From NCBI RefSeq assembly GCF_001941945.1, contig NZ_CP015584.1:248001-312000 (forward strand): a stretch of 64,000 nucleotides of DNA, given 5' to 3'. Made by a program: the position numbers and the translations under genes. Under the pieces are notes generated by a model that made no database searches, was not told the origin of the DNA, and saw only the letters and a list, made by a program, of their open reading frames with translations. Of the stretch, positions 41,531 through 59,852 are shown one piece after another. This stretch comes from Roseomonas gilardii. GTDB taxonomy: Bacteria; Pseudomonadota; Alphaproteobacteria; Acetobacterales; Acetobacteraceae. Each line of letters opens with the position of its first letter. Positions within the stretch are counted from its first letter, which is position 1.

Positions 41531-41555
41531 ATGACGAGATATGACTAGTTATGAC
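41531..41555. promoter_or_regulatory. Three ATGAC boxes at 10-bp period
   Basis: ATGAC begins at 41531, 41541 and 41551, one helical turn apart, with a near-palindrome ATGACTAGTTAT (41541-41552) in the middle. They lie in the GntR/permease intergenic region and run over the annotated permease start, making a plausible operator for the GntR regulator. Confidence 0.5.
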
Positions 41556-42347
41556 GTGGCATCCGCTGAGAGACAATGGGAGCCTCACTTGATCAGGATG
41601 CTCGGCCGCGCCGGCCGCGTGCCCGCCGCCCTCGCGGGCGCCGTGCTCATCTGGTGGGTTCTCAGCGCCTTGCCGGGCGTGAATCCCGTCTTCCTGCCGA
41701 ACCCACTTGCCGTCGCCCGTGCCTTCGTCGAGCTGTGGCAGGACGGGACCCTTCTTGGCGACCTGCGCGTTTCGCTCGGGCGCGCGGCCATCGGCTTCGC
41801 CATCGGCTCCATCCTGGGCGTGCTGGTGGGGTTGCTGACATCGCGCACGCGCCTGATCGGCCATGCCGTGACGCCCATGCTGATGCTGCTGCGGCCCATC
41901 CCCGCCATCGCCCTCGTGCCGCTCGCCATCGTCTGGTTCGGCATCGGGGAGGGATCGAAGCACTTCGTGATCGCCTACACCGTCTTCCTCGCCGTCTGGC
42001 TCAGCACGCATCACGGCGCCTCCTCCGTCGCGGGCACCTATATCCGCGCCTCCCGCTCTCTGGGCGCCGGCCATCTGCGGGAGTTCTTCGAGGTCGTGGT
42101 GCCCGCCGCCGCGCCGCATATCGTGGCGGGCCTGCGCATGGGGGCGGCGTTGGCCTTCCTCTCCCTGGTCGCGGCGGAGCTGACGGGTGCCTCCTCCGGC
42201 ATCGGCTTCCGCATCCAGGAGGCGCGCCAGTTCATGCAGACCGACGTGATGTTCGTGAACCTGATCCTCCTTGGCGTGCTCGGGGCGGCGCTGGATGCTG
42301 CCTTCGTCGCCGCCAGCCGCCGCCTCGTGCACTGGGAGGTCATGTGA
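41541..42347 (+). CDS. NitT/TauT-type ABC transporter permease
   Basis: 268-residue inner-membrane permease of the SsuC/TauC family with about six helices. The EAA-type loop is SLGAGHLREFFEVVVPAAAP. The start is uncertain: ATG 41541 lacks a clear ribosome site and overlaps the putative operator, while ATG 41598 (MLGRAGRVPAAL) begins just before the first helix. Its final ATGTGA overlaps the GTG start of the ATPase gene. Part of a complete importer with the next two genes. Confidence 0.86.
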   Translation: MTSYDVASAERQWEPHLIRMLGRAGRVPAALAGAVLIWWVLSALPGVNPVFLPNPLAVARAFVELWQDGTLLGDLRVSLGRAAIGFAIGSILGVLVGLLTSRTRLIGHAVTPMLMLLRPIPAIALVPLAIVWFGIGEGSKHFVIAYTVFLAVWLSTHHGASSVAGTYIRASRSLGAGHLREFFEVVVPAAAPHIVAGLRMGAALAFLSLVAAELTGASSGIGFRIQEARQFMQTDVMFVNLILLGVLGAALDAAFVAASRRLVHWEVM

Positions 42348-43135
42348 GCACCGCCCCGCTTTCCGTCGGCGAAGTCCGCGCGACCGCGGCCGAGGTCCTC
42401 TTCATGGGCCGCCGCGGGCCGGTACAGGCGCTGGCCCCCACGGACCTGCTTCTGCGGCCGGGTTCCTTCACCGCGCTCATCGGCCCCTCCGGCTGCGGCA
42501 AGTCCACCCTGCTCAACGCCATCGCCGGCTTCGCGCCCCTGTCCGGCGGCGTGGTGACGCTGGATGGCCGCCCCATCCGCGGACCTGGCCCTGAGGTCGG
42601 CGTCGTCTTCCAGCAATATGCGCTGTTCCCCTGGTTCACCGCGCGCGGGAATGTGGAATTCGCGCTCAAGCGGCTCGGCCATTCCGCCGCTGACCGGCGC
42701 CGGACGGCGGATGGCGCGCTGGCGGAGGTCGGCCTCGCCGGACGGGGCGATTCCTATCCCGGCCAGCTTTCGGGCGGCATGAAGCAGCGCGTGGCGCTGG
42801 CGCGCACCCTGGCGGCGCGGCCCAAGGTGCTGCTGATGGACGAGCCTTTCGGGGCGCTGGACGCCCAGACCCGGGCCTCGATGCACGAGTTGCTGCTCGG
42901 CGTCTGGGAGGCGCACCGCACCACCGTGCTCTTCGTCACGCATGACGTGGACGAGGCGCTGGTGCTAGCGGATCGTGTCCATGTCATGGCGGCCGGCCCC
43001 GGCCGGATCATCGAGACGATCGAGCTGGGCGATCGTGCCGCCCGGGTCGGCGCCGAGGTGGGTCCCGAATATCTCGCCCAGCGCAACCGCATCATGAGTC
43101 TCCTCCGCCACGCGTCCCCGGCCGAGGCGGCCTGA
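42344..43135 (+). CDS. NitT/TauT-type ABC transporter ATPase
   Basis: 263-residue ATPase with Walker A GPSGCGKST, Q-loop VVFQQYALFPW, signature LSGGMKQRVALAR, Walker B VLLMDEPFGALD and switch His in VTHDVDEAL, as in SsuB/TauB. The start is GTG at 42344, overlapping the permease stop, with GGGAGG just upstream; the same frame is open much further but only as a shadow of the permease gene. Energises import with the permease and binding protein. Confidence 0.9.
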   Translation: MSTAPLSVGEVRATAAEVLFMGRRGPVQALAPTDLLLRPGSFTALIGPSGCGKSTLLNAIAGFAPLSGGVVTLDGRPIRGPGPEVGVVFQQYALFPWFTARGNVEFALKRLGHSAADRRRTADGALAEVGLAGRGDSYPGQLSGGMKQRVALARTLAARPKVLLMDEPFGALDAQTRASMHELLLGVWEAHRTTVLFVTHDVDEALVLADRVHVMAAGPGRIIETIELGDRAARVGAEVGPEYLAQRNRIMSLLRHASPAEAA

Positions 43136-43146
43136 CCCCTATCCCG

Positions 43147-44142
43147 ATGGACCGACCGATGACCCGCGTCACACGCCGAGCCCTTGCCGGCTCCCTCCTC
43201 CTCGCCCCCGCGATCATCCCCGGCCTGGCGCGTGCCCAGGCCGCGCGGCCCGTCCGGGTCGGCGGCGGCCTCTTCGCCGAGGCGCCGCAATTCGCGCTGG
43301 CGCAGGAGCGTAACCTGTTCGGGGCTGCGGGCCTGGCTCCGGCCGTCACCAACTTCCCCACCGGGCGGGAGGCCTTCGAGGCCTTGATCGGCGGCCAGGT
43401 CGATCTCGCGATGATGGCGGAGTTGCCTGTCGTGGTCGGGGCACTGCGCGCGCAGAAGTTCGGCGTTGTCAGCACGCTGTCCCGCTACAAGGGCATGCGC
43501 ATCGTCACGAAGAAGCGGGACGGCGCGGCCCCCACGCTGGCCTCGCTGGCGGGTCGGAAATTCGGCGTCACGCTGGGCACCAACACGCATTTCATGCTGA
43601 TGACGGAACTGGCTGCGGCCGGCATCCGGGCCGAGATCGTCAATATCGGCCCGCCCGACCTCATCGCGGCCCTCGCGCGCGGCGATGTGGATGCGGCGGC
43701 CCCCTTCCCGAACGCCTATGCCGGGGCGCGCCGCGCGCTGGGCGCCGACTATGCCGAGATTCCCGTCACGACCTACCAGCCGACCTATCTCCTCGTCGCC
43801 TCCGAGCCCTTCGCCCGGGACGTCGATGTGACAGGCCGTTTCCTTTCCGCCCTGCTCAGGGCCGAGGCGGCCATGGCGACCGAGACCGAGGCGGCGCAGG
43901 CGGCGGTCGCGAAGCTGGCGGGCCGGGCGCAGAACCTGGAGGCCGTGCGCGCGGCCTGGCCCGATTACGATGCAAGGATCACCCTCGACCGGCCGCTGCT
44001 CGACCTGATGGAGCGCGAGGGCCGCTGGCTGGCCGAGACCGGGGCTGCCCGTGGCGCTTCCGCCGACCCCGCTGTCTTCCGCGCGGCGATCGCGGAGGCG
44101 CCGCTGCGCGCCGTGAGCCCCGATCGCGTGACCCTGGGCTGA
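43147..44142 (+). CDS. NitT/TauT-type ABC substrate-binding protein
   Basis: 331-residue periplasmic binding protein with a Tat-like N-terminus (TRVTRRALAGSLLLAPAII, cleavage near ARAQ). The mature part: RVGGGLFAEAPQFALAQERN, FPTGREAFEALIGGQVDLAM, and a second-lobe GVTLGTNTHFMLMTELAAA. Ligands of the family are sulfonates, nitrate, or thiamine-like pyrimidines. The adjacent amidohydrolase suggests a nitrogenous heterocycle or aminated compound rather than a sulfonate. Confidence 0.86.
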   Translation: MDRPMTRVTRRALAGSLLLAPAIIPGLARAQAARPVRVGGGLFAEAPQFALAQERNLFGAAGLAPAVTNFPTGREAFEALIGGQVDLAMMAELPVVVGALRAQKFGVVSTLSRYKGMRIVTKKRDGAAPTLASLAGRKFGVTLGTNTHFMLMTELAAAGIRAEIVNIGPPDLIAALARGDVDAAAPFPNAYAGARRALGADYAEIPVTTYQPTYLLVASEPFARDVDVTGRFLSALLRAEAAMATETEAAQAAVAKLAGRAQNLEAVRAAWPDYDARITLDRPLLDLMEREGRWLAETGAARGASADPAVFRAAIAEAPLRAVSPDRVTLG

Positions 44143-44145
44143 TCG

Positions 44146-45549
44146 ATGCCGTCCCTTTCGCCCGAGATCCTGTCCGCGCCCCGCCTGCTGCTGCGGCCGG
44201 GGCAGGTCCTGCTGCCGGAAGGCTTCGCGGCGGATATCGCCGTCCTGGTGGAGAATGGCCGCTTCGCCGCGGTCGGCCCGGCCACCGCGATCCTCGCCGC
44301 GAATGCGGACCTCGTCCCCATCGACCTGCCGGATCATGCGCTGATGCCCGGCTTCATCGACGCGCATCATCATCTGACGCAGGCCATCGGCAAGTCGCTC
44401 GCCTTCGGGGAGCCCTCCGAGATCTTCCGCCGCATCTGGGTGCCGATGGAATCCCATCTGGGCGGGGAGATGGCGTGGCTCTCCGCGAAGCTCGCGGCGT
44501 TGGAGGCGTTGCGCGGCGGCTTCACGACCGTGGTGGATGCCGGGACGCGGCACGAGGGCGATCTCGATCCCATCGCCGTGGCGGTCCGGGAGGCCGGGCT
44601 CCGCACCGTGCTCGGCCTGATCTGCAACGATGCGGCGGGGCCGGAGCCGGCCGATCCGGCCCCGATTCTCGCGCGGGCGGAGCGGCACCTTGCCCGTTGG
44701 GGCCAGGACAGCCTGGTCCATCCCTCCCTCGCCATCTCCATCCCGGAGGTGGCGACCGATGCCATGCTGCACCGGGTCGCCTCCCTCTGCGCCGAGGCGG
44801 GCGTGCCGTTCCAGACCCATGCCAATGAGCATCTCGTCGCCGTGGAGCGCTCGCTCGTCGCGCGCGGGCTTCGGCCGGTGGAGCATCTGCGGGCCGCCGG
44901 CGCGCTGAACGCATCGGCGCTCCTGGCCCATGCGACCCTGGTCACGCCGCGCGAGATCGGCCTGCTGCGCGACAGCGGCGCCGCGGTGGCCTATTGCCCC
45001 GTTGCCTCGCAGTGGAAGGGGAACGCCGTTGCGCCCGCCACCGCCATGCTGGAGATGGGCGTGCCGCTGGCGCTGGGCACCGACGCCACCCGGAGCGATG
45101 CCTTCCGCCTGCTCGACGCGGCGGAAGCCTCGCAGCGCCTTGCCTATGGCATCCCGCAGGGCGACTTCTCCTGCGGTGGCGGCTGGCCCTGGATGGTCCA
45201 CGCCACCGCGGCCTCGGCGGACACGCTCGGCCTCGGCGCTGTCACCGGCCGCGTCGCGCCGGGCCTCGCGGCCGATTTCCTTCTGGTGGACCTCGCCGTA
45301 CCGGAACTCGTGCCGTCGCGGGACCTGATGTGGGAACTGACCCGCTTCGGCAACCGCGACCAGATCGAGGCTGTCTTCGTCGCGGGCCGCCTCCGGCTCT
45401 GGCACGGCTGGCCCCTGGACTGGGACGCGCGTGCGGCCATGCGGGAGGTGGCGGCCCGCGCCGGGGCCGCCGTCGCCGGTTCGCCGATCGTCAAGATCCA
45501 CCCGCTCTCGGCAGCCCATCGCGCCGCCGCGGCCAGCGGCACGCACTGA
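44146..45549 (+). CDS. Amidohydrolase-superfamily deaminase/chlorohydrolase-like enzyme
   Basis: 467-residue metal-dependent hydrolase of the TrzA/AtzA/SAH-deaminase group. Metal ligands: H74 and H76 in FIDAHHHLTQ, His in FQTHANEHL, His in LLAHATLVTPRE, and Asp in ALGTDATRSDAF. The N-terminal beta-sandwich precedes the barrel. It probably deaminates or dechlorinates a ring compound imported by the transporter encoded upstream. Follows the binding-protein gene by 3 bp. Confidence 0.85.
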   Translation: MPSLSPEILSAPRLLLRPGQVLLPEGFAADIAVLVENGRFAAVGPATAILAANADLVPIDLPDHALMPGFIDAHHHLTQAIGKSLAFGEPSEIFRRIWVPMESHLGGEMAWLSAKLAALEALRGGFTTVVDAGTRHEGDLDPIAVAVREAGLRTVLGLICNDAAGPEPADPAPILARAERHLARWGQDSLVHPSLAISIPEVATDAMLHRVASLCAEAGVPFQTHANEHLVAVERSLVARGLRPVEHLRAAGALNASALLAHATLVTPREIGLLRDSGAAVAYCPVASQWKGNAVAPATAMLEMGVPLALGTDATRSDAFRLLDAAEASQRLAYGIPQGDFSCGGGWPWMVHATAASADTLGLGAVTGRVAPGLAADFLLVDLAVPELVPSRDLMWELTRFGNRDQIEAVFVAGRLRLWHGWPLDWDARAAMREVAARAGAAVAGSPIVKIHPLSAAHRAAAASGTH

Positions 45550-45567
45550 CCGCCCCCAGGGATCGTT

Positions 45568-46293
45568 ATGCTCCTCGTCATGACCTGCATCGCGCTGGTG
45601 GCGGCCGGCGCCGCGATCCAGGTCGCGGTCGGTGCCGGCCTCAGCATCGTCTGCGGCGCCGCGCTCTTTCTCTGGCTCGGCACCGGCGCCGGCGTGCCGG
45701 TCCTCCTGCTGCTCAACCTCCTCGTCTCCATCCTTGGCACTGCCCTCGGCGGGGTGCGGTTGCGCTGGGGGGATGTGGCCCTGGCATCGGGCTCGATCCT
45801 GCTGGGCTGCGCGGCGGCTGCCCTGTTGCCGCCAATCCCCGAGGCCGCGCTGAAGGCGATGACAGCCGCCGTCCTGCTCCTGGCCGCCTTGCCGCGCCGG
45901 CCGGCGCGCGGCGCCGCGCCCGCCTCCGATCAGGGCTGGAAGGGCATCGCCGGAGCCGGCGTCGTGACAGGCATGCTCACCCTCTGGACCGCCAGCCCCG
46001 GCCCGGTGACCCCCGTCGCGCTGGCCCGCGCCGGGCGTTCCGGCAACGAGGTGCGGCGCGTCATGCAGCCGGTCTCCTGCGTGGGGTATGGTGTGGCCCT
46101 CGCGGTCACCGGCCTGCCCACCACCAGTGCCACGGGGGCTGGCATTCTGTGGAGCCTGATCGCCGCCTGTCTCATCGGGGCGGGCTGCGGCTTCACGCTA
46201 CGGCCCAGGATCGAGCCGGGCCGCGTCGTCAAGCTGATCCGCCTCATCGCGGTGGTGGCTGCCGGGCTGCTTCTGCTCTCGCTGCGGACCTAG
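45568..46293 (+). CDS. TauE/SafE-family membrane permease
   Basis: 241-residue hydrophobic protein with about seven to eight helices, for example MLLVMTCIALVAAGAAIQVA and GIAGAGVVTGMLTLWTASPG. The GAG/ASPGP pattern in each half is typical of TauE/SafE. These transport sulfite, sulfonates or organic acids, often outward. Last gene of the operon, 18 bp after the amidohydrolase; it may export the reaction product. Confidence 0.82.
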   Translation: MLLVMTCIALVAAGAAIQVAVGAGLSIVCGAALFLWLGTGAGVPVLLLLNLLVSILGTALGGVRLRWGDVALASGSILLGCAAAALLPPIPEAALKAMTAAVLLLAALPRRPARGAAPASDQGWKGIAGAGVVTGMLTLWTASPGPVTPVALARAGRSGNEVRRVMQPVSCVGYGVALAVTGLPTTSATGAGILWSLIAACLIGAGCGFTLRPRIEPGRVVKLIRLIAVVAAGLLLLSLRT

Positions 46294-46705: not shown

Positions 46706-48391
46706 GTGACCGCCCCGAAGCTCTCGCGCCGCGCCCTGCTCGCCAGTTCCAGCCTTTTCCTGTTGCCCATCCTCGCGATGGGCAGCGCCCTCGCCGCCAC
46801 GCCGGGGGACAAGATCCGCAAGATCACCCTGCTCTGCGCTGCGCAGGCCAGCGACCCGCAGGAATTCCAGGCAGCACAGCTGATCGCCGCCGCATGGCGG
46901 CAGCTTGGCCTCGATGTCGAGGTCAAGGGCCTGCCGCGGCCGCAACTCTCGGATGTCGTCTGGAACAACCGGACGAAGTGGGACACCACGATGTGGCGCA
47001 TGGTCGGTCGGCCAGAGCGGAGCGATCCCGACGAGTTCACCTTCAACTTGTACAACCCGGCCACCATCGCCACCGGGTACAACTTCGTGGCCTACAACAA
47101 CCCGGATTTCCAGAAGCTCGCTGAGGCGCAGCGGGCGCAGCCGGATCCGGAAAAACGCCGTGAGCTGCTGTACCAAGCGCAGGACATGATCAATCGGGAC
47201 CAGCCCTATCTGTTCCTGGTCTATCCCAAGAATGTCCTTGCCTATGACAAGTCCGTCTGGAAGGCGGAGAGCATCGTCGAGCAGAGCGGCATCGGCATCC
47301 GCAACTTCTGGACCTTCCTGCGCGCGGAACCGGCCGGGGCGAAGAAGGACATGGTCTGCAACGCCGCCGAATCGCTGATCGCTCTGAACCCGCTCTATAT
47401 CAGCGGTGCCATCGACAGCTGGGTGACCGAACTGATCTGGGACCGGCTGATGCGGGTCGGCCCCGACGGCCTGCCGCAGCCCTGGGCGGCGGAGACGGTG
47501 ACGCAGGTCGATCCCGCCACCATCGACGTGGTGCTGCGCCAGGGCCAGACCTGGCATGACGGGAAGCCCGTCACCGTGGAGGATGTGGTCTTCTCCTTCG
47601 AGGCGCCGGCGACCAGCGACAAGTCGCCGATGTACAAGCCCTTCGTGGAGAACATCGCCTCGGTGAAGGCGGTGGACGAGCATACCGTCCGCTTCGTGCT
47701 GAAGACGCCGAGCGCGGCCTTCATGACTTCGACCCTGGCCAAGATCAACCTGACGCCCAAGCATGTCTGGAGCCCGATCCTGGCCGATCTGGCGAACAAG
47801 CCACAGAATGCCGAGACGGTGCAGGAGGAGCGCCCGATCGGCTCCGGCCCCTTCAAGGTGGCCCGCTTCAAGCTGAACGAGGAGATCGTGCTGGAGGCCA
47901 ATCCGGCGCATTGGGAAAAGCCCCGGATGGATCGCTGGATCCTGCGGGTGATCACCAATACCGGTGCCGCCCTCGGCATGCTGCCGCGCGGCGAGATCAA
48001 CTTCCTGACCGACTACCGGGGCGATCCGAAGCTGCTGGCCGATCTCGCCAGGAACAATCCCAGCATCCAGGTCGTCGCTACCACGGATATGGGTTTCCGC
48101 TTCGTGGCGCCGAACGCGCGCCGCCCGCCCTTCGACGACGTGCGTTTCCGACGCGCCCTTTCCCTCGCCATCAACCGCCAGCTCATGGTGGCGGCTGCCT
48201 GGAACGGCTTCGCGGCCCCTGCCAATTCCTTTGTCTCGCCGGCCCTGCAGTTCTGGGCGAAGCCCGGCATCGATGATCTGAAGCCGAACATGGCCGAAGC
48301 GAAGAAGCTGCTGGAGGAGGCGGGCTATGTGATCGCCGCTGGCAAGCTGCATTACCCCGCCGGAGTGAAGGAAACGCAGACGGAAGGCTGA
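46706..48391 (+). CDS. Oligopeptide-type ABC substrate-binding protein with permuted lobe order
   Basis: 561-residue SBP_bac_5 protein with Tat-like signal (LSRRALLASSSLFLLPILA). The part normally C-terminal comes first, residues about 40-205: AAQLIAAAWRQLGLDVEVKG, SDPDEFTFNLYN, YNNPDFQKLAEAQ, RRELLYQAQDMINRDQPYLF. The part normally N-terminal follows, about 215-555: LIWDRLMRVGPDGLPQPWAA, GQTWHDGKPVTVEDVVFSFE, RPIGSGPFKVARF, and VRFRRALSLAINRQLM, ending AKKLLEEAGY. Total length is normal for the family, so each half occurs once. GTG start with GGAG 9 bases upstream. First gene of the transporter operon. Confidence 0.85.
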   Translation: MTAPKLSRRALLASSSLFLLPILAMGSALAATPGDKIRKITLLCAAQASDPQEFQAAQLIAAAWRQLGLDVEVKGLPRPQLSDVVWNNRTKWDTTMWRMVGRPERSDPDEFTFNLYNPATIATGYNFVAYNNPDFQKLAEAQRAQPDPEKRRELLYQAQDMINRDQPYLFLVYPKNVLAYDKSVWKAESIVEQSGIGIRNFWTFLRAEPAGAKKDMVCNAAESLIALNPLYISGAIDSWVTELIWDRLMRVGPDGLPQPWAAETVTQVDPATIDVVLRQGQTWHDGKPVTVEDVVFSFEAPATSDKSPMYKPFVENIASVKAVDEHTVRFVLKTPSAAFMTSTLAKINLTPKHVWSPILADLANKPQNAETVQEERPIGSGPFKVARFKLNEEIVLEANPAHWEKPRMDRWILRVITNTGAALGMLPRGEINFLTDYRGDPKLLADLARNNPSIQVVATTDMGFRFVAPNARRPPFDDVRFRRALSLAINRQLMVAAAWNGFAAPANSFVSPALQFWAKPGIDDLKPNMAEAKKLLEEAGYVIAAGKLHYPAGVKETQTEG

Positions 48392-48396
48392 GCGTC

Positions 48397-49371
48397 GTGC
48401 CCTACCTGATCCGGCGCCTGCTGCACATGGTCTTCGTGCTCTGGGCGATCGCCACGGTCGTCTTCCTGATGTTCCGCCTGATGCCGGGCGATCCGAGCAC
48501 GGCCTTCATCGATCCCACCTTCACTGAGGACCAGCAGCGCGAGATCCGGGCGCAGTTCGGGCTGGATAGGCCGCTGCCGGAGCAATACCTCGTCTATCTG
48601 GGCAATCTCCTGCGCGGCGAGTTCGGGCTCTCCTTTCGCCAGCGTCAGCCGGTTCTGGGCCTTGTCCTCGACGTCCTGCCGAACACCCTGCTGCTGACGG
48701 TCAGCGCGCTGCTGGTCGCCTATCTGATCGGCACGGTGCTGGGGGCCCTGATGGCTTGGCGGCGTGGCGGGGCCTTCGAGGCGGTCGCGGTGCCGGTGGT
48801 GCTGGCGACCCGGGCGGCTCCGGAGTTCTGGGTCGGCATGGTGATGCTGGCGGTCTTCGCCTTCGGCCTTGGCTGGTTCCCGTCGGGCGGCGCCAACACG
48901 GCCGGGGCGCAGTACGGCTCGGAGTGGTCGCGTGTCCTCTCGCTCGACTATCTCCGCCATCTCGCTCTTCCGGCCCTGACGCTGGCCATCTACCTGCAAG
49001 GGCTGCCGGCGCTGCTGATGCGCTCCTCGATGCTGGAGGTGATGCGCGAGGAGTTCGTCACCATGGCGCGCATGAAGGGCCTCTCCGAACGCTCGATCAT
49101 GATGCGCCATGCCGCGCGCAACGCGTTGCTGCCGCTGGTCACCGCCTTCGCCCTCGGCTTCGGCCAGTCCGTCGGCGGCAACGTGGTGGTGGAGAACGTC
49201 TTCTCCTGGCCCGGCCTCGGCCGCCTGCTGGCCGACGCGATCGCGGCCAGCGACTATCCCCTGGCGCAATGCGCCTTCCTGCTGATCGCGCTGGTGCTGG
49301 TGCTGATGAACTTCCTGGCCGATCTCCTTTATGGTCTGCTCGACCCCCGGGTGTCCCATGGCCGGGGCTGA
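48397..49371 (+). CDS. Oligopeptide-type ABC permease, DppB-like
   Basis: 324-residue inner-membrane permease: first helix LLHMVFVLWAIATVVFLMFR, the DppB signature RLMPGDPSTAF and periplasmic QFGLDRPLPEQYLVYLGNLL, then the EAA loop MKGLSERSIMMRHAARNALL. GTG start 5 bp after the binding-protein stop. Partner of the DppC-like protein. Confidence 0.9.
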   Translation: MPYLIRRLLHMVFVLWAIATVVFLMFRLMPGDPSTAFIDPTFTEDQQREIRAQFGLDRPLPEQYLVYLGNLLRGEFGLSFRQRQPVLGLVLDVLPNTLLLTVSALLVAYLIGTVLGALMAWRRGGAFEAVAVPVVLATRAAPEFWVGMVMLAVFAFGLGWFPSGGANTAGAQYGSEWSRVLSLDYLRHLALPALTLAIYLQGLPALLMRSSMLEVMREEFVTMARMKGLSERSIMMRHAARNALLPLVTAFALGFGQSVGGNVVVENVFSWPGLGRLLADAIAASDYPLAQCAFLLIALVLVLMNFLADLLYGLLDPRVSHGRG

Positions 49372-50278
49372 GGCGGGCGTGGCGGCACTGCCTGCCCTGG
49401 CACCGGACACCCCGCGCACCGGCGCCTGGCGTGCCTTCCGGCAGTTGCGGCGCGATCCCTATGCGCTGGCCGGCCTGGCCATCTACCTCGTCTTCGTGGC
49501 GGTCGGGCTCGGTGCGGACTGGCTCGCCCCCTACGATCCGATGGAGATCCTCTTCGCCCCGGACGGCAACCTGGCCGCCGCCCTGCCGCCCGGCGCGGAG
49601 CACTGGCTCGGCACCACCAATCTCGGGCGGGACATCTTCTCGCAGCTCGTGATGGCCACCCGGCCCTCCCTGATCGTCGGGCTCTCGGCCGCCGTCGCGG
49701 TGGCCACCATCGGCACGGCCGTCGGGCTGCTGGCCGGGTATTTCGGCGGCTGGATCGATCAGGTCCTGATGCGGCTGGTGGATCTGATCCTGGGCCTGCC
49801 CTTTCTGCCCTTCGTGATCGTCGTCACCGCCCTGCTGGGTCCGGAACTGCGCAACATCGTCCTGGCCGTGGTGCTGCTGCTCTGGCCGAACGCGGCCCGG
49901 GTGATCCGCAGCCAGGTCCTGACCCTGTCCCAGAGGCAATTCGTCGAGGCCGCCCGCGTCACCGGTGCCAGCGAATGGCGGATCCTCTTTGTCCATGTCG
50001 CCCCGGGCGTCTTGCCCTTCTCCGCCCTCTACGGGGCCTTCGCCGTCGGCTGGGCGATCATGGTGCAGGCCAGCGTCTCCTTTCTCGGCTTCGGCGGCAG
50101 CGAGACGATCTCCTGGGGCACGATGCTGCAGGACGCCTATGCCTCGCAGGCGCTGGACCGGGGGCAGTATGCCTGGTTCCTGCCGGCGGGGCTCTGCATC
50201 GTCCTGGTCGTCCTGGCGGGGTTCCTTCTCAGCCGGGGCTACGAGGAACTGCTCTTTCCCAAGCTGAGGGACGAGTGA
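49358..50278 (+). CDS. Oligopeptide-type ABC permease, DppC-like
   Basis: 306-residue permease with the OppC N-terminal helix (DPYALAGLAIYLVFVAVGLG), HWLGTTNLGRDIFSQL preceding the core, and the EAA loop EAARVTGASEWRILFVHVAP. The start at MAGAEAGV overlaps DppB by 14 bp; a GTG-like codon upstream is less likely. Confidence 0.9.
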   Translation: MAGAEAGVAALPALAPDTPRTGAWRAFRQLRRDPYALAGLAIYLVFVAVGLGADWLAPYDPMEILFAPDGNLAAALPPGAEHWLGTTNLGRDIFSQLVMATRPSLIVGLSAAVAVATIGTAVGLLAGYFGGWIDQVLMRLVDLILGLPFLPFVIVVTALLGPELRNIVLAVVLLLWPNAARVIRSQVLTLSQRQFVEAARVTGASEWRILFVHVAPGVLPFSALYGAFAVGWAIMVQASVSFLGFGGSETISWGTMLQDAYASQALDRGQYAWFLPAGLCIVLVVLAGFLLSRGYEELLFPKLRDE

Positions 50279-51309
50279 TGGGCGAGCTTCTGGCGGTCCG
50301 CGACCTGGCGGTCGCCTATGGTGGCGGCGCCGTACATGCGGTGGATGGCGCCAGCCTCTCGGTGGCGCAGGGGGCTATGCTGGGCCTCGTCGGCGAGTCC
50401 GGCTGTGGCAAGACCACCCTGGCCCGCGCCCTGATGGGGGTGATGCCGGCCGGGGCGGCGGTAACCCGCGGGGAGATCCTGCTGGACGGCACGGACCTCG
50501 TGGCCCTGCCGGCGACGGAGCGGCGCGCCCGCCTGTGGCGGGAGATCGCCTTCGTGCCACAGACCGCGATGAGCGCCCTGGACCCGGTCTACCGCCTGCG
50601 CGACCAGATGCGGGAGGTGCTGTGCGACCGCGGCGGGCTTTCCCGTGCCGAAGCCGATGCACGGGCGGCCGAGATGTTCCGGGCGGTCGGCCTGCATCCG
50701 CAGCGCCTCGCAGACTATCCGCACCAGTTCAGCGGTGGCATGCGCCAACGCGCCGCCATCGCCCTGGCGCTGGCGCTGAGGCCGAAGCTGGTGATCGCCG
50801 ACGAGCCGGTCACCGCGCTGGACGTGATCGTGCAGCGCCAGGTCCTCGACACCTTCCGTTCGCTGAGCACGGAGCTGGGGCTTTCCGCCATCATCGTGAC
50901 CCACGATATCAGCGTGGTCGCCTATCTCTGCGAGCAGGTCGCGGTGATGTATGCCGGGCGCGTGGTGGAGCATGGCCCCACCGGGACGGTCCTGGAACGA
51001 CCGGCGCATCCCTACACGATGGGACTCATGAACGCCTTTCCGGACCTGGAGAGCGAGGAAGCCGTCCTCGCCTCCATCGAAGGTGCGCCACCACCGCTCT
51101 CCAGCCCGCCACCGGGTTGCCGCTTCGCCCCGCGCTGTCCCTTCGCGATGCCGGTCTGCAAGACGACCAGCCCCGAACCCGTCACCCTGGATGACGCACC
51201 CTCCGGCCTCCATTGGGCAGCCTGCCATCGCGTGGAACAGGCATCCGCGCTGCGCCAACTGGCGCGGGTGGCAACGACCTGGCAGGGTGTCGCGGAGCCA
51301 CGTGCATGA
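50278..51309 (+). CDS. Oligopeptide-type ABC ATPase, DppD-like
   Basis: 343-residue ATPase: Walker A GESGCGKTT, signature FSGGMRQRAAIALAL, Walker B LVIADEPVTALD, switch VTHD. The C-terminal oligo_HPY segment has the cysteine group CRFAPRCPFAMPVC that can bind an FeS cluster in this family. ATG overlaps the DppC stop in TGATG. A longer frame upstream is a shadow of DppC. Confidence 0.92.
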   Translation: MGELLAVRDLAVAYGGGAVHAVDGASLSVAQGAMLGLVGESGCGKTTLARALMGVMPAGAAVTRGEILLDGTDLVALPATERRARLWREIAFVPQTAMSALDPVYRLRDQMREVLCDRGGLSRAEADARAAEMFRAVGLHPQRLADYPHQFSGGMRQRAAIALALALRPKLVIADEPVTALDVIVQRQVLDTFRSLSTELGLSAIIVTHDISVVAYLCEQVAVMYAGRVVEHGPTGTVLERPAHPYTMGLMNAFPDLESEEAVLASIEGAPPPLSSPPPGCRFAPRCPFAMPVCKTTSPEPVTLDDAPSGLHWAACHRVEQASALRQLARVATTWQGVAEPRA

Positions 51310-52322
51310 ATGCCTCGCCGCTCGCGGATTCCTCCGTCCATCGAAAGCCGATCGTCGAGGCCTGGGGACTGTCGAAGCATTATCCCACCTCGCGCAGCCT
51401 GCGGCAGGCGCTGCGGGGCCAGAGGCCCATGCTGCGTGCGGTGGATGGCGTGGACCTGACCCTGCGCCCCGGCGAGAGTGTCGGCCTGGTCGGTGAGTCG
51501 GGGAGCGGCAAGACGACGATCGGCCGCCTGCTGCTGAAGCTGACGGAACCGAGCGCCGGGCAGCTTGCCTTCGAGGGTCAGGACCTCGCCCGCCTCGATC
51601 GCCGGGGCATGCGGCTGTTCCGCCAGCGGGCCCAGCTTGTCTTCCAGAACCCCTTCGATGCGCTGAACCCGCGCTTCAGCATCGGCCGCACCATCGCGGA
51701 GCCCCTGCTGAACACCGGCGTGCCGAAGGCCGAGCATGCCGCGCGCGTGGCCGAGAGCCTGCGCACCGTGCATCTGGGAGACCCCGCGCGCCTGCTCGAC
51801 CGCATGCCGCACCAGCTTTCGGGCGGACAGCTCCAGCGCGTCGTGCTGGCGCGCGCACTGGTGCTCCATCCGCGTTTCCTGGTGGCGGATGAACCGGTCT
51901 CGATGCTCGACGTCTCGGTGCGTGCCGGAATTCTCAACCTGCTGCGCGAGCTGCGGGACCGGCTGGGCCTCACCACCCTTGCCATCTCGCACGATCTCAC
52001 CCTGGTGCGGTATGTCTGCGAGCGGACCCTGGTGATGTATCTCGGCAAGGTGGTGGAGGATGGACCGACGGCACGGGTGATCGCCAGCCCGGCGCATCCC
52101 TATACCACCGCGCTGATCCGCGCGGTGCCGCGGCCGCAGGTGGCGCAGCCGCGGGATGCCCTGCCGCTGCATGGCACGCTCGGCGATGCGGTGGAGCCCG
52201 GCGGCGGATGCCGGTTGCGCCATCGCTGCCCACACGCCTTCGCGCGCTGCGCCGCCGAGGAACCTCCCCTCACCGAGATCGCGCCGGGCCACCGCGCCGC
52301 GTGCCATCTGCATGCGGCGTGA
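51306..52322 (+). CDS. Oligopeptide-type ABC ATPase, DppF-like
   Basis: 338-residue ATPase: Walker [10 protein letters not shown], signature [15 protein letters not shown], Walker [13 protein letters not shown], switch ISHD, and C-terminal [14 protein letters not shown]. The ATG overlaps the DppD stop by 4 bp. Pairs with DppD to drive the importer. Confidence 0.92.
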
Positions 52323-52350
52323 CAACGAGGTGGATCGGGAGGGCACCGTC

Positions 52351-53115
52351 ATGGACTACACGATCGCGGCCGTGGACCGCGCGCTGGCGCTGCTGGAACT
52401 GGTGGCGGAGCATCCTGGCATCGGCATCAGCGATCTCGCGCGGCTGAGCGGGGACACGAAGACGATGGTGTTCCGCATGGCGACGACGCTGGAGGGCCGC
52501 GGCTACCTGCACAAGGACAGCGAGACGCGCGGCTATACGCTGGGTCACAAGCCGCTGCTGCTGAGCGAGAAGATGCAGCACCAGATGCCTCTGCTGCGGG
52601 TCGCGAATCCCGTGCTGGACGATCTCGTGGCCCGGACGCGGGAGAATGTTTCGCTGTTCGTGCGCGAAGGGCAGCAGTCCGTCTGCGTGGGCATCCGGCA
52701 GTCGCCCCAGCCGATCCGCCTGTATGCCGAGCTCGGCCGCCAGGGGCCGTTGCATGTGGGTGGCGCTCCGAAGCTCCTCCTCGCCCATGCGCCGGCGGAG
52801 ATCCAGGATGCCGTGGCCGCCGCGCCGCTCGACCGCTTCACGCCGGAGACCATCACCGACCCGCAGCGGCTTCGCGAGCGCCTCGGCCGCATCCGCGCCC
52901 AGGGCTACAATGTGAGCCATGGGGACCAGGATGCCGGCGCCTTCTCGGTCGCCGCGCCGGTCCGGGACCATGCCGGCAAGGTCATCGCCGCCATCTCGGT
53001 CGCTGGGCCGCAGTCGCGCCTGAACGAGGACCTGGAACGTCTCTATGTCCGGATCGTCCTGGACGCGGCGGGCGATGTCTCGGCGCGCCTGGGCTGGCGG
53101 GACGCGGCGGCGTGA
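52351..53115 (+). CDS. IclR-family transcriptional regulator
   Basis: 254-residue regulator. N-terminal winged HTH: AAVDRALALLELVAEHPGIG, ISDLARLSGDTKTMVFRMAT, RGYLHKD; C-terminal GAF-like effector domain: GQQSVCVGIRQSPQPIRLYA, QGYNVSHGDQDAGAFSVAAP. The start at 52351 has GGGAGGG upstream; the open frame before it overlaps DppF. It lies within the cluster between transporter and enzyme genes, so it probably controls both. Confidence 0.9.
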   Translation: MDYTIAAVDRALALLELVAEHPGIGISDLARLSGDTKTMVFRMATTLEGRGYLHKDSETRGYTLGHKPLLLSEKMQHQMPLLRVANPVLDDLVARTRENVSLFVREGQQSVCVGIRQSPQPIRLYAELGRQGPLHVGGAPKLLLAHAPAEIQDAVAAAPLDRFTPETITDPQRLRERLGRIRAQGYNVSHGDQDAGAFSVAAPVRDHAGKVIAAISVAGPQSRLNEDLERLYVRIVLDAAGDVSARLGWRDAAA

Positions 53116-53197
53116 TTCGGCCCGGCACCCCAACCGTTCCGGCCGGGCATCCGCCGCGCGGGACCACGACCGGCATCTGCCCGATGGAGACCCAGCC

Positions 53198-54970
53198 ATG
53201 AGCGACACCCCATCCAGACTCTGCGATCCGGTCACGCTGGAGATCGTGCGGGGCGCGATCCGCGCGGCGCAGGCGGAGATGGAGGCGCTGATCGAGCGCA
53301 CCGCGATGTCAGCCTTCATCCGGGAGAAGAAGGATTTCTACACCGCCCTCTTCGATGCCGAGGGCGTGATGGCGGTCTGTTCCAACAACCCGATCTTCGG
53401 CGACATCACGAGCCCGGTCTTCCGGGACTTCGCGCCGGACACGATGCGGGACGGCGATCTCTACTGGTACAGCGACTGCTATGGCTCACGCGGCGCGGTC
53501 AGCCATTCCAATGACCAGGTCTTCCTGGCGCCCGTCTTCCTGGACGGGCGCCGCGTGGCCTTCGTCATGGGCTGGGCGCATTTCGCCGATATCGGCGGCA
53601 TGCGCCCCGGATCGATCAGCCCCGATGCGACCGACATCTTCCAGGAAGGCATCATCGTGCCGCCGACGAAGCTGATCGCGGCGGGCGAGACCAATGCCGC
53701 GGCGTTGAACATCTTCTTCCGGAATTCCCGCTATCCGGACAGCGCACGGGGCGACACGCGGGCCATGATGGCGGCGGTGAATCTGGGCGTGGCGCGGATG
53801 CGCGAGATCGCCGGCCGCTTCGGCGCCGATGTGCTGGCCGATGCGCTGGCCCAGCTCCTCGACCGGACGCGGGAACTGGTGCGCGCGAAGCTGCGCGAGA
53901 CCTTTCCGGTCGGCACCCACCGCTTTACCGACCGCATCGACGGCGATGGGCACGGTTCCGGCACGCTGCGGCTGCGCTTCGCCCTGACGCGGACGGAGGA
54001 GGACCGCTTCATCCTCGATGCCACGGAGACGGACGACCAGTCGCCCGGCCCGGTGAACTTCCTGATGAACCCGGATGTGCCGGGCATGGCGCTGGGACTC
54101 TATTTCCTGGGGGGCGATCCGAACCAGGTGATGAATGCCGGGGCGCCCCGCGCGCTGGACGAGGTCCGGCTGCGCGATGGTTCGCTGCTGCAGCCGCGCT
54201 TCCCGGCGGCGCTCGGCATGCGGGGCCTGACCATGATGCGCATGCTGGCGGCGATGAACGGGCTGATCGCCGTGGCCGGGGGCAATGCTCCCGCCGCCCA
54301 TGCCGCCTATGTGGTGATGCTGCTGCGCGGGATGGCGGGGGGGAAGCACTTCCTGATGAGCGATGGGATCGGTGTCGGCTATGGCGCACGCAGCTTCGCC
54401 GATGGCAATGACGCGGTCTATTTCGTGGCGCAGGAGAATTATCCGGTCGAGTTCCTGGAGGGCGAGTACCCGGTGCGTCTGCGCGAGTACGGTCTGAACC
54501 GCGACAGCGGCGGGCCGGGGCGGTGGCGCGGCGGCTGCGGCATCGTCCGCGAATACGAGATCCTGGCCGAGGAGGCGATGCTGGCCATCCGCATCGACGG
54601 GGTGGAGAACCCTCCCTGGGGTGCCGAGGGCGGCATGTCCGGCGGGCCCGGCCGCGTCGTGGTTAATCCCGGCACGCCGCGGGAGCGGGTCCTGCGCCCG
54701 CTCTCCGATGGCAACCGCGTCGTGAAAGGGGAGGTCCTGCGCATCGAGACGGGCGGGGGCGGCGGGCGCGGCCATCCCTTCGACCGGCCGCCCGAACTGG
54801 TCCTGGCCGACGTGCTGGGCGGCATGGTGAGCGAGGCCGCCGCGGAGCGCGACTATGGGGTCATGGTGCGGGATGGCGTGCCCGACCTGCTCGCCACCGC
54901 CGAGCGCCGCGCGCAACGGCCTGCTGGCGCCGCCTTCCACCGGGGGAGCTATGCAAATGTCCTCGACTGA
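53198..54970 (+). CDS. hyuB: Hydantoinase B/oxoprolinase family subunit
   Basis: 590-residue HyuB-family subunit of ATP-dependent hydantoinase/oxoprolinase-type enzymes. Characteristic pieces: DPVTLEIVRGAIRAAQAEME, FIREKKDFYTALFDAEG, GDLYWYSDCYGSRGAVSHSN, FAHIG-like FADIGGMRPG, and C-terminal RDSGGPGRWRGGCGIVREYE. It acts with HyuA to open a cyclic amide with ATP hydrolysis. The start at 53198 (MSDTPSRL) has GGAGA upstream. Overlaps hyuA by 14 bp. Confidence 0.9.
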   Translation: MSDTPSRLCDPVTLEIVRGAIRAAQAEMEALIERTAMSAFIREKKDFYTALFDAEGVMAVCSNNPIFGDITSPVFRDFAPDTMRDGDLYWYSDCYGSRGAVSHSNDQVFLAPVFLDGRRVAFVMGWAHFADIGGMRPGSISPDATDIFQEGIIVPPTKLIAAGETNAAALNIFFRNSRYPDSARGDTRAMMAAVNLGVARMREIAGRFGADVLADALAQLLDRTRELVRAKLRETFPVGTHRFTDRIDGDGHGSGTLRLRFALTRTEEDRFILDATETDDQSPGPVNFLMNPDVPGMALGLYFLGGDPNQVMNAGAPRALDEVRLRDGSLLQPRFPAALGMRGLTMMRMLAAMNGLIAVAGGNAPAAHAAYVVMLLRGMAGGKHFLMSDGIGVGYGARSFADGNDAVYFVAQENYPVEFLEGEYPVRLREYGLNRDSGGPGRWRGGCGIVREYEILAEEAMLAIRIDGVENPPWGAEGGMSGGPGRVVVNPGTPRERVLRPLSDGNRVVKGEVLRIETGGGGGRGHPFDRPPELVLADVLGGMVSEAAAERDYGVMVRDGVPDLLATAERRAQRPAGAAFHRGSYANVLD

Positions 54971-57008
54971 CGCCTCGCCGCGTTCCCTTTCCGTCGCGGT
55001 GGACATTGGGGGCACCTTCACTGACATCACCATCCAGGACGGCGCGACCGGGCGCGCCTGGACCGCCAAGACACCCTCCACACCCCATGATCCATCGGAG
55101 GCCTTCCTCGGCGGCGTCCGCCTGGCACTGGAACTGGCCGGGGGCGATGCTGCCGCGGTCGGCCGCGTGCTGCATGGCACCACGGTTGCCACCAACCTCA
55201 TCCTGGAGGGCAAGGGGGCGAGCACCGCGCTCGTCACCACCAGGGGGTTCCGCCACGTCCTGGATATCGGCCGGCAGGACATCCCGCGCCCCGTCAACCT
55301 CCATGCCTGGGTGAAGCCGCGCCGCCCCGTACCGCCATCCCGCGTCTTCGAGGTGTCGGCGCGCATCGCGGCGGATGGCGCGGTGCTGCTTCCCCTGGAC
55401 GAGGACTCGGTCCGGCGCGCGGCCGAGGCCTGCCGGGCGGCTGGCGTCAACGCGGTGGCGGTCTGCCTGCTGCACGCCTTCACCAAGCCGGAGCATGAAC
55501 GCCGCGTGGTGGAGATCCTGCGCGGGGCGCTGCCCGGCGTGGCCGTCACCGCCTCCTCCGACGTGCTGCCGGTGGTGCGGGAGTATGAACGCTCGCTGGC
55601 CACTATCCTGAACGCCCAGGTCATGCCCGCCATCTCCACCTATGTCCGCAGGCTGGAGGAACGTCTGGCGGAGGAGGGAATCGCCGCGCCGCTGCTGCTG
55701 ATGAAGAGCAATGGCGGGGTCGCGGGCGCAGCCTCGATCCGCCGCGCCCCGGCAGTGACCGCGCTGTCCGGTCCGGCCGCGGGGGTGGTCGGGGCACAGG
55801 CGGTGGCCGCCGCCGCGGGTCTTCCGGACATCATCACCGTCGATATCGGCGGCACCAGCGCGGATATCTGCCTGATGAAGGATGGCACCGTCGGACTGAC
55901 CCAGAACGGCAAGGTCGGCGAATGGCCGCTGCCTCTGCCGATGGTGGACATGGTCACCATCGGTGCCGGAGGAGGCTCCCTGGCACGCGTGGCCGAAGGT
56001 GCCCTCGCCGTGGGGCCGGAGAGTGCCGGCGCGCAACCCGGCCCGGCCTGCTACGGACGAGGGGGCGGCCTGGCCACGGTCACGGATGCGCATGTCGTGC
56101 TGGGCCATCTGCCGCCGAGCCTGCTGGGTGGCCGCATGCGCCTCGACGTGGCGGCGGCGACGGCGGCGGTGCAGCGGCATGTCGCGGAGCCACTGGGCAT
56201 CGACCTGCACGCGGCGGCGCGCGGCATCCTCGCCATCGCGGATTCCAACATGGTCGGTGCGGTGCGCGTGGTCTCCGTGGAACGCGGGCATGATCCGCGC
56301 GACTTCACTCTGGTCCCCTTCGGCGGCGCCGGGCCATTGCATGGCTGTGCGCTCGCCGATCTCCTGGGTATCCGCACCGTGCTGGTGCCGCCCTCACCCG
56401 GCGTGCTCTGCGCCCAGGGCCTGCTCGCTGCCGATCTGCGCGCGGAGTTCAGCCGCAGCCTGCGCGGCGGCGAGGATGTGGCCTCGGTGGAGGAAGGCTT
56501 CGCAGCGCTGGAGGCCCAGTCGGCCGCCTGGTTTGACGAGGAGGAGGTGCCGCCGGAGCGGCGGGAAACCAGCCGCGTGGCACTGATGCGCTATGCCGGC
56601 CAGGGGGGCGAACTTGCCGTGCCCTGGCCCAGCGGACGGGAGGCCGCCGCCGAGGGTTTCGCCGGGCGGCACCGCGCCCTCTACGGCTTCGACCTTCCCG
56701 GGGCCGTGGTCGAGCTGGTGACTCTTCGCGTCGAGGCGGCGGGACGGCTGGGAGGCGGCATCACGGCGCCGCTACCGCCGGGCCGGGGAGCGGAATCCTA
56801 TGGCCGGCACAACGTGCATTTCGCCGGCGGCACGAGGGAGGCTGCGCTTTACGATCGCTCGGCCCTGGGCGCCGGGGACCGCTTCGCCGGGCCGGCCATC
56901 GTCACCCAGCTCGACGCCACCACGCTGGTGCCGCCGGGCTGGCAGGGGCGGATGGATGCCTGCGGCGCCCTAATCCTGGAGCGCGACCGGGAGGGGGACA
57001 CGCCGTGA
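54957..57008 (+). CDS. hyuA: Hydantoinase A/oxoprolinase family subunit
   Basis: 683-residue HyuA-family ATPase subunit. The actin-like fold starts VAVDIGGTFTDITIQDG (first phosphate loop); later VLHGTTVATNLILEGKG, SNGGVAGAASIRRAPAVTAL, ITVDIGGTSADI (second phosphate loop) and PFGGAGPLHGCALADLLGI. ATG 54957 is favoured over 54951 because GGGGAG is then about 8 bases away. Forms the complex with HyuB; substrate possibly a hydantoin, 5-oxoproline-like or other lactam. Confidence 0.9.
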   Translation: MSSTDASPRSLSVAVDIGGTFTDITIQDGATGRAWTAKTPSTPHDPSEAFLGGVRLALELAGGDAAAVGRVLHGTTVATNLILEGKGASTALVTTRGFRHVLDIGRQDIPRPVNLHAWVKPRRPVPPSRVFEVSARIAADGAVLLPLDEDSVRRAAEACRAAGVNAVAVCLLHAFTKPEHERRVVEILRGALPGVAVTASSDVLPVVREYERSLATILNAQVMPAISTYVRRLEERLAEEGIAAPLLLMKSNGGVAGAASIRRAPAVTALSGPAAGVVGAQAVAAAAGLPDIITVDIGGTSADICLMKDGTVGLTQNGKVGEWPLPLPMVDMVTIGAGGGSLARVAEGALAVGPESAGAQPGPACYGRGGGLATVTDAHVVLGHLPPSLLGGRMRLDVAAATAAVQRHVAEPLGIDLHAAARGILAIADSNMVGAVRVVSVERGHDPRDFTLVPFGGAGPLHGCALADLLGIRTVLVPPSPGVLCAQGLLAADLRAEFSRSLRGGEDVASVEEGFAALEAQSAAWFDEEEVPPERRETSRVALMRYAGQGGELAVPWPSGREAAAEGFAGRHRALYGFDLPGAVVELVTLRVEAAGRLGGGITAPLPPGRGAESYGRHNVHFAGGTREAALYDRSALGAGDRFAGPAIVTQLDATTLVPPGWQGRMDACGALILERDREGDTP

Positions 57009-58429
57009 GCCGCGAGGACGCCCTCGCCGCGGCCCGCGACCTGCTGGAGGACGGCCGCTATCTCGACACGCTGGCCCGCCGCGTGGCGCTCCGCACGGCC
57101 AGCCAGGACCCGGAGAGTGGTCCGCATCTGCATGCCTATCTGGCGGGGGAGATGCTGCCCGACCTTCAGGCGCAGGGCTTCGAGGGAAGCATCTTCGCCA
57201 ATCCGACCGGCCAGGGCGGACCCTTCCTGATTGCCAGACGCATCGAGGACTCGTCCCTGCCGACGCTGCTGACCTATGGCCATGGCGACACCGTCCTGGG
57301 CATGGAAGGGCGCTGGGAAGAGGGCCTTTCCCCCTGGGTGCTGACCCGGCGTGGCGAGCGCCTCTATGGCCGAGGCGTGGTGGACAACAAGGGCCAGCAC
57401 ACCGCCAACCTGATGGCGATGGAGGCGGTGCGGCAAGTCCGGGGCGGACGCCTCGGCTACAATGTCACGCTGCTGCTGGAGACCAGCGAGGAGGTGGGTT
57501 CCCCGGGCATCGAGGAGATCTGCCGGGAACGGCGCGAGCTTCTGGCCGCCGACGTACTGATCGCCTCGGATGGGCCGCGCCTCGTGCCCGAGGTGCCGAC
57601 CCTCACCCTCGGCACACGGGGCGCCATCAACTTCGATCTTCGCGTGACCTATCGCGAGGGCGGGCATCATTCCGGCAACTGGGGCGGATTGCTCGCCAAT
57701 CCCGGCATACGGCTGGCCCATGCCATCGCCAGCCTGGTCGGGCCGGAAGGGCAGGTGCTGCTGCGCGACCTCGTGCCGGAACGCATTCCCGACAACATCC
57801 GCCGCGCCCTGGCCGAATGCCGCGTCGATGGCGGCGCGGATGGGCCGGCGATCGATCCCTGGTGGGGCGAGCCCGGCCTGTCCGCCGCCGAGAAGGTCTT
57901 CGGCTGGAACACCTTCGAGGTCCTGGCCTTCCGGACAGGCAATCCGGAGGTCCCCGTGAATGCCGTGCCGCCCGAGGCCTTCGCGGCCTGCCAGATCCGC
58001 TACACGGTGGATCGCGAGGTCGAGACTTTCCTGCCCGCCATCCGCCGTCACCTCGACGCGAAGGGTTTTTCCGACGTCACCATCCACGCCGTGAAGAGCG
58101 GCGCCGAATGGCGTGCCACGCGCATGGACCCGGACGGCCCATGGCCGAGGCTGGTCGCGGAATCCATCCGCCGCTCCACGGGGCGGGCCCCCATGATCGT
58201 GCCCAATGCCGGCGGTTCCCTGCCGAATGACAGCTTCGCCGTCACGCTGGGCCTGCCCACCATCTACATCCCGCATTCCTATAGCGGCTGCTCGCAGCAC
58301 GCCCCGAACGAGCACGCGCTGCTGCCCCTGGTGCGGGAAGGGCTGGAGATCGCCGCCGGGGTCTTCTGGGATCTGGGGGAGACATCCTGGCCCAGCCGTC
58401 AGGACACGCCCCGTCAGGACACCCCATGA
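57005..58429 (+). CDS. M20 family metallopeptidase
   Basis: 474-residue zinc peptidase/deacylase. Ligands: LTYGHGDTVLG (His, Asp), YGRGVVDNKGQHTANL (bridging Asp), LLETSEEVGSPG (Glu-Glu) and CSQHAPNEHALL (His). GTG start overlaps the hyuA stop region. The C-terminus is a tandem RQDTPRQDTP from a small DNA duplication. It probably hydrolyses the open-chain amide produced by HyuAB, as carbamoylases of this fold do in hydantoin pathways. Confidence 0.88.
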   Translation: MSREDALAAARDLLEDGRYLDTLARRVALRTASQDPESGPHLHAYLAGEMLPDLQAQGFEGSIFANPTGQGGPFLIARRIEDSSLPTLLTYGHGDTVLGMEGRWEEGLSPWVLTRRGERLYGRGVVDNKGQHTANLMAMEAVRQVRGGRLGYNVTLLLETSEEVGSPGIEEICRERRELLAADVLIASDGPRLVPEVPTLTLGTRGAINFDLRVTYREGGHHSGNWGGLLANPGIRLAHAIASLVGPEGQVLLRDLVPERIPDNIRRALAECRVDGGADGPAIDPWWGEPGLSAAEKVFGWNTFEVLAFRTGNPEVPVNAVPPEAFAACQIRYTVDREVETFLPAIRRHLDAKGFSDVTIHAVKSGAEWRATRMDPDGPWPRLVAESIRRSTGRAPMIVPNAGGSLPNDSFAVTLGLPTIYIPHSYSGCSQHAPNEHALLPLVREGLEIAAGVFWDLGETSWPSRQDTPRQDTP

Positions 58430-59802: not shown

Positions 59803-59852
59803 CAGATCCCGATCTCGGTCGGCGCAACCACGGACAGGGTGCAGCACTCGCC

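Follow-up and report, generated by a model that had tools for sequence, protein, structure and literature searches.

Can the substrate-binding protein of an ABC importer carry the two halves of its chain in reverse order, and if so, how did its gene arise? This question is raised by a gene in a window of 64,000 nucleotides from Roseomonas gilardii (contig NZ_CP015584.1, positions 248,001 to 312,000), the whole stretch of DNA that was analyzed and to which all coordinates refer. It is uncommon for a natural circular permutation to persist as a family. An earlier note, made from the sequence alone, proposed that the gene encodes a circularly permuted oligopeptide-binding protein in a dpp-type operon. 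The features of the locus are collected in Table 1.

Table 1. Features of the permuted gene and of the genes that follow it
Feature	Position	Strand	Basis
Circularly permuted SBP_bac_5 (cluster C) substrate-binding protein, 561 aa, GTG start	46706..48391	+	ORF, Pfam, phmmer, rotation test
Putative export signal, residues 1-33	46706..46804	+	Twin-arginine-like SRRALL, then hydrophobic stretch; limits by eye
Ancestral C-terminal segment, residues 51-185 (ordinary model 368-495)	46856..47260	+	Rotation test
Junction uniting ancestral C- and N-termini, residues 186-209	47261..47332	+	Rotation test, alignment
Ancestral N-terminal segment, residues 210-541 (ordinary model 27-352)	47333..48328	+	Rotation test
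New C-terminal tail, 20 residues	48329..48388	+	Alignment
DppB-type permease	48397..49371	+	Family profile matches
DppC-type permease (ORF as listed, start unrefined)	49331..50278	+	Family profile match
DppD-type ATPase (start unrefined)	50194..51309	+	Family profile match
DppF-type ATPase (start unrefined)	51300..52322	+	Family profile match
IclR-family regulator (start unrefined)	52222..53115	+	Family profile matches
Hydantoinase B/oxoprolinase (HyuB)	53195..54970	+	Pfam match
Hydantoinase A/oxoprolinase (HyuA)	54951..57008	+	Pfam match
M20 family metallo-hydrolase	57005..58429	+	Pfam match
Two adjacent luciferase-like monooxygenases, downstream, at the end of the operon-like run	58426-61214		Pfam match

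Order of the two halves

The 561-aa protein has one Pfam match at E ≤ 0.001, PF00496 (SBP_bac_5), with an E-value of 5.6e-73. This match is split into two stretches, the better of which pairs residues 257-546 with profile positions 2-283. When the protein was compared with PDB sequences using phmmer, residues 226-542 aligned with residues 34-345 of AppA (1xoc), and residues 60-183 aligned with residues 380-498 of the same protein. A linear SBP_bac_5 alignment in the normal order was looked for and the match does not follow it; the late segment of the family precedes the early one.

The order was also examined by a rotation test. The profile for this test has 514 positions and derives from 11 paralogues with the ordinary order in R. 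gilardii, which were the best loci after the permuted gene among the 59 places that matched in this genome. The native sequence aligned to this profile in two separate stretches (Table 1), with 52 bits for the late segment and 236 bits for the early segment. After the sequence was rotated in silico, one stretch covering model positions 31-495 was obtained with 287 bits. No part of the protein is duplicated, and about 15 model positions are unmatched at the cut.

These results bear out three points of the earlier note, namely that the halves stand in reverse order, that each part is present once and that the arrangement implies a circular permutation, since two native stretches become one after rotation. 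The possibility that the N-terminal 200 residues are a different domain was tested, and they correspond to the ordinary C-terminal segment. The note had placed the two segments at about residues 40-205 and 215-555. The order of these segments stands, but the profile supports 51-185 and 210-541 as their limits. The note also had the protein end at AKKLLEEAGY, but the actual end is 20 residues further on (VIAAGKLHYPAGVKETQTEG). This C-terminal tail is probably a remnant of the loop that was cut by the permutation. At the level of sequence, the 561-aa protein was confirmed to be an SBP_bac_5 (DppA/OppA-type) binding protein with its halves swapped.

A broader profile of permuted sequences, A2, was used to search the R. 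gilardii genome; all 21 members of its alignment match SBP_bac_5. Among the 64 places that matched, the permuted gene alone spans both halves. The remaining places cover either the early half only (58) or the late half only (5). With more than 50 SBP_bac_5-type match places in 5.4 Mb, this genome has a large set of peptide-type importers. The permuted gene is under purifying selection, as its dN/dS against five relatives is 0.07, 0.13, 0.15, 0.15 and 0.33.

Relatives with the same order and their origin

A search for homologues with the same order found relatives in Acetobacteraceae, in further families and on haloarchaeal plasmids. Within the same family, 24 of 200 genomes (R. gilardii included) match at E ≤ 1e-60. 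Twenty of these, again counting R. gilardii, have one near-full-length stretch, which in G109 contains an internal stop, and the other four have a partial or interrupted match. Interrupted frames were seen in L027 (G109), L029 (G018) and L030/L036 (G055), and the two frames of G055 meet near the linker between the halves. The order sample gave matches in 21 of 299 genomes. Presence is patchy, as only one of the nine other genomes of the genus listed in the order sample carries the permuted gene. Another genome of the same genus (G341) has two permuted SBP genes, L052 and L060, on the same strand and about 5.7 kb apart from start to start.

The class sample gave matches in 14 of 385 genomes with profile A1 at E ≤ 1e-70 and in 15 genomes, apparently of the same 385, with profile A2 at E ≤ 1e-60. 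A full-length permuted match (E ≤ 3e-183) is present in 13 of these 15, R. gilardii included, and the other 12 of the 13 belong to nine further family codes. One of the 13 (G600) has an additional early-half match. The two remaining genomes have a fragment at a contig edge (G492) and an early-half match that was read as ordinary (G658). In the phylum sample, the one genome of 299 that matched at E ≤ 1e-70 was R. gilardii itself, and no case was found elsewhere in that sample.

Phyla outside Pseudomonadota were sampled through plasmids only. The permuted protein used as a query matched 24 records of the plasmid collection, and in 23 of these a single place accounts for 80% or more of the query. 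The bacterial sources are Roseomonas, Neorhizobium, Microvirga, Nitratireductor, Ketogulonicigenium and Maritalea, and the haloarchaeal sources include Halalkalicoccus, Haladaptatus, Halarchaeum and Halorussus. Five divergent permuted queries were also run against the plasmids, and the matches listed (the best 40 of 47, 43 of 43, 20 of 56, 20 of 32 and 12 of 32) come only from Alphaproteobacteria and haloarchaea. Cytobacillus was among the remaining matches of these searches, and the one locus examined (L081) has the ordinary order. Permuted relatives reach down to about 25% identity. In the phage collection, one record exceeded 80% coverage, in two joined pieces.

Seventy proteins were scored against the ordinary-order profile. 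Of these, 55 are permuted, including two second copies of the same record, and 14 are ordinary, including the 11 used to build the profile; a fragment (L027) is undecided. The ordinary order was found in L081 (Cytobacillus), L082 (Deinococcus) and L090 (Rhizobium daejeonense). L083, from a plasmid of Haloarcula sp. JP-L23, had been chosen as ordinary or unsure; this was rejected, as it is permuted by the same scoring. In L083 (3080-5110) the old termini are linked by about 98 residues with repeats rich in T, E and R, and the stretch has no annotated transporter genes. The early segment ends at model positions 352-364 in the permuted proteins and the late segment starts at 350-397, mostly 357-373. 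Many permuted proteins have a G-x-L-x-Y-P motif soon before the chain end (GKLHYP in the R. gilardii protein). In the alignment, the cut site coincides with an extended loop in several ordinary relatives, which places the new ends at a point where length changes are already tolerated in the family.

A tree was calculated from rotated sequences of 53 permuted and 24 ordinary proteins, 22 of the latter from the same class. All 53 permuted sequences lie on one side of a branch with a support of 94/72. This grouping is present in 92% of 200 bootstrap trees and lacking in 8%, and the tree contains long branches. The ordinary sequence nearest to the permuted side is the Cytobacillus protein (L081). 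After removal of 19 long or near-duplicate sequences, which left 36 permuted and 22 ordinary, the support was 94/95, and a quick tree with L081 removed as well gave an SH-aLRT of 100. The trees fit one origin of the permuted sequences, with support that is good but short of decisive. The permuted order is taken as the derived state, because the described structures and the PDB alignments shown have the ordinary order. The presence of these proteins in archaea and in a bacterial class suggests horizontal transfer.

We consider it very probable that the protein serves a Dpp-type importer and that one ancient circular permutation of a cluster C protein gave rise to its gene. Of the possible routes, a tandem gene duplication with later loss of the outer parts would be the likeliest. 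An unlikely alternative is that two different, neighboring SBP paralogues recombined, which would have fused a late half from one source with an early half from another. The product would have the same topology as a true permutation but a mixed ancestry. The ranking of the 24 ordinary sequences by one half does agree only loosely with that by the other (Spearman 0.36, p 0.09), and L081 comes first for the early half but fourth for the late half. L081 nevertheless ranks high with either half, which together with the complementarity of the halves, save for the loop of about 15 positions, argues against such a chimera. Since scores of far relatives are noisy, the weak correlation of ranks is weak evidence both ways.

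It is quite improbable that several independent permutations occurred at a loop that tolerates new ends. The variable length of this loop in ordinary members and the distance between haloarchaea and Alphaproteobacteria would agree with repeated events, but the permuted proteins share one breakpoint, and in three trees a single branch separates them from the ordinary sequences. That damage to the locus, its mis-assembly or an N-terminal domain of other descent only mimics a permutation is hardly credible: interrupted frames occur in three relatives (G018, G055 and G109) but not in the R. gilardii gene, whose frame is open and under purifying selection, the same order is found in many genomes, the score of 52 bits given above ties the N-terminal part to the ordinary late segment, and chance or an assembly fault is very unlikely because relatives keep the order from 85% to about 25% identity with dN/dS of 0.07-0.33.

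Operon and candidate ligand

The permuted gene heads an operon-like run, and the two permeases and two ATPases that follow it (48397-52322) complete the arrangement of a Dpp/Opp-type importer, in agreement with the dpp-type operon of the earlier note. Farther downstream are a regulator and several hydrolases (Table 1). The closest NCBIfam model to HyuB is caprolactamase subunit beta, which it matches far under the cut-off. Upstream, a cluster on the same strand (41541-46293) contains ABC permease and ATPase genes identified by eye, an NMT1-like binding protein and an amidohydrolase identified by Pfam, and a TauE/SafE-like membrane protein seen by eye, with no Pfam match at 1e-10.

The surroundings of homologues were mapped in 12 annotated plasmid loci with a permuted gene, which were hand-picked from the matches. 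ABC transporter genes lie directly 3′ of the permuted gene in 11 of the 12, the exception being L083. The permuted gene is annotated as "ABC transporter substrate-binding protein" in all 12 loci. At least one of an M20, M28 or M81 family member, a creatininase, a D-aminoacylase or HyuAB is found in the flank of eight loci (not in L078, L083, L087 and L089). Near the permuted gene of Maritalea (L078), an NtaA/DmoA-family monooxygenase is annotated. Similar neighbors, namely an M28 peptidase, an IclR regulator and a membrane dipeptidase, were observed in L082, a plasmid locus of Deinococcus peraridilitoris with the ordinary order.

From these neighbors, we tentatively suggest that the ligand could be a small amide-type compound on which the HyuA/HyuB and M20 enzymes encoded in the operon act, perhaps a hydantoin, oxoproline, an N-acyl or N-carbamoyl amino acid, or a short or modified peptide. 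This is a guess, because the count of eight in 12 loci comes without a background rate and the ordinary L082 locus is alike.

Predicted topology and place among binding proteins

The permuted protein is homologous over both halves to DppA, OppA, AppA and NikA (cluster C, PF00496) and shares their type of operon with two permeases and two ATPases, but the order of its halves is swapped. None of the best 60 of 112 matched PDB sequences covers the permuted profile in one stretch. The DppA equivalog NF043070 was matched with 115 bits against a cut-off of 1005, and NCBIfam equivalogs in general are far below their cut-offs.

EppA from Chelativorans, also a cluster C protein, has hinge strands at residues 295-302 and 531-538 and a second lobe, Domain III, at residues 303-530; its domains are contiguous and its order is thus the ordinary one (PMC7312458). 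In the alignment to PDB sequences, the cut of the permuted protein maps to residues 368-386 of the DppA precursor, within the C-lobe. Because the cut is inside the second lobe, both crossings between the lobes can remain. The earlier note's proposal that the permutation moves the hinge is therefore unsupported. Both chain termini would have moved from the first lobe to the second. We infer that the chain would run from the second part of lobe 2 through a hinge strand to the old C-terminus, then over the linker to the old N-terminus, and on through lobe 1 and the other hinge strand to the first part of lobe 2. The new ends would lie in a surface loop of the second lobe, with a short linker uniting the old ends. 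The protein probably retains its fold, the hinge of two strands and the closure of a Venus flytrap. By homology and from the operon, the protein would be exported through its N-terminal signal, capture its ligand by closure and deliver it to the DppBCDF-like complex encoded downstream.

In DppA, R383 and D436 hold the termini of the dipeptide and meet the scoop loop of DppB (PMC12136057). R383 lies at the cut, in an unaligned gap, and extrapolates to Q47 of the permuted protein. D436 corresponds to R102 in the phmmer alignment, in which the PDB chain has an R at 436 and is apparently an engineered mutant, or to E104 if counted back by hand without gaps from the DPD motif. Loss of the dipeptide-anchoring residues was considered as a pointer to another ligand and dropped, as the placement of the gap is ambiguous. 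When the scoop region was compared between permease partners of permuted and ordinary proteins (without the R. gilardii sequence), nothing diagnostic was found.

Among the matches listed, open-access titles and the starts of abstracts, TpMglB-2 (Tp0684) of Treponema pallidum was the only natural permuted ABC binding protein recognized. It is a circularly permuted Cluster B glucose-binding protein whose family is conserved and for which its authors proposed the suffix c (Cluster Bc) (PMC4990184). Both TpMglB-2 and the present protein are ABC-importer binding proteins in which a natural circular permutation is shared by a whole family, but TpMglB-2 belongs to another cluster, is cut elsewhere and has gained a fourth lobe crossing. 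In the permuted cluster C protein, where the cut is within the second lobe, no crossing should be added. Its sole Pfam match, PF00496, also sets it apart from the sugar-binding Cluster B. A lipobox pattern was found in six of seven haloarchaeal permuted sequences and in none of 46 others, so that 47 of 53 are without it, with start codons picked mechanically. Membrane tethering, an idea raised for TpMglB-2, was rejected as a general cause of such permutations, because the lack of a lipobox in the 46 non-haloarchaeal sequences argues against it. Among the open-access articles listed, none was found that describes a permuted cluster C protein.

The permuted proteins appear to be an ancient lineage, so far overlooked, within a very common family of transporters. 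We moderately favor the idea that they form an unnamed subclass of cluster C ("Cluster Cc") with a single origin, which later passed between Alphaproteobacteria and haloarchaea, in part at least by horizontal transfer, and became specialized for amide-type compounds. For those who annotate genomes, they are a warning that linear profiles cover permuted proteins only in part. If the predicted topology is true, termini on the second lobe would alter the order of export and folding, and in the lipid-anchored archaeal members a different lobe would be tethered. Such proteins may also be a scaffold for biosensors in which the chain ends have to be on the second lobe. The transporter family in which the permuted order occurs is among the most common, and this order has persisted through deep divergence in two domains of life. 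It provides a natural experiment on whether the order of the chain matters for the folding, export and docking of flytrap proteins.
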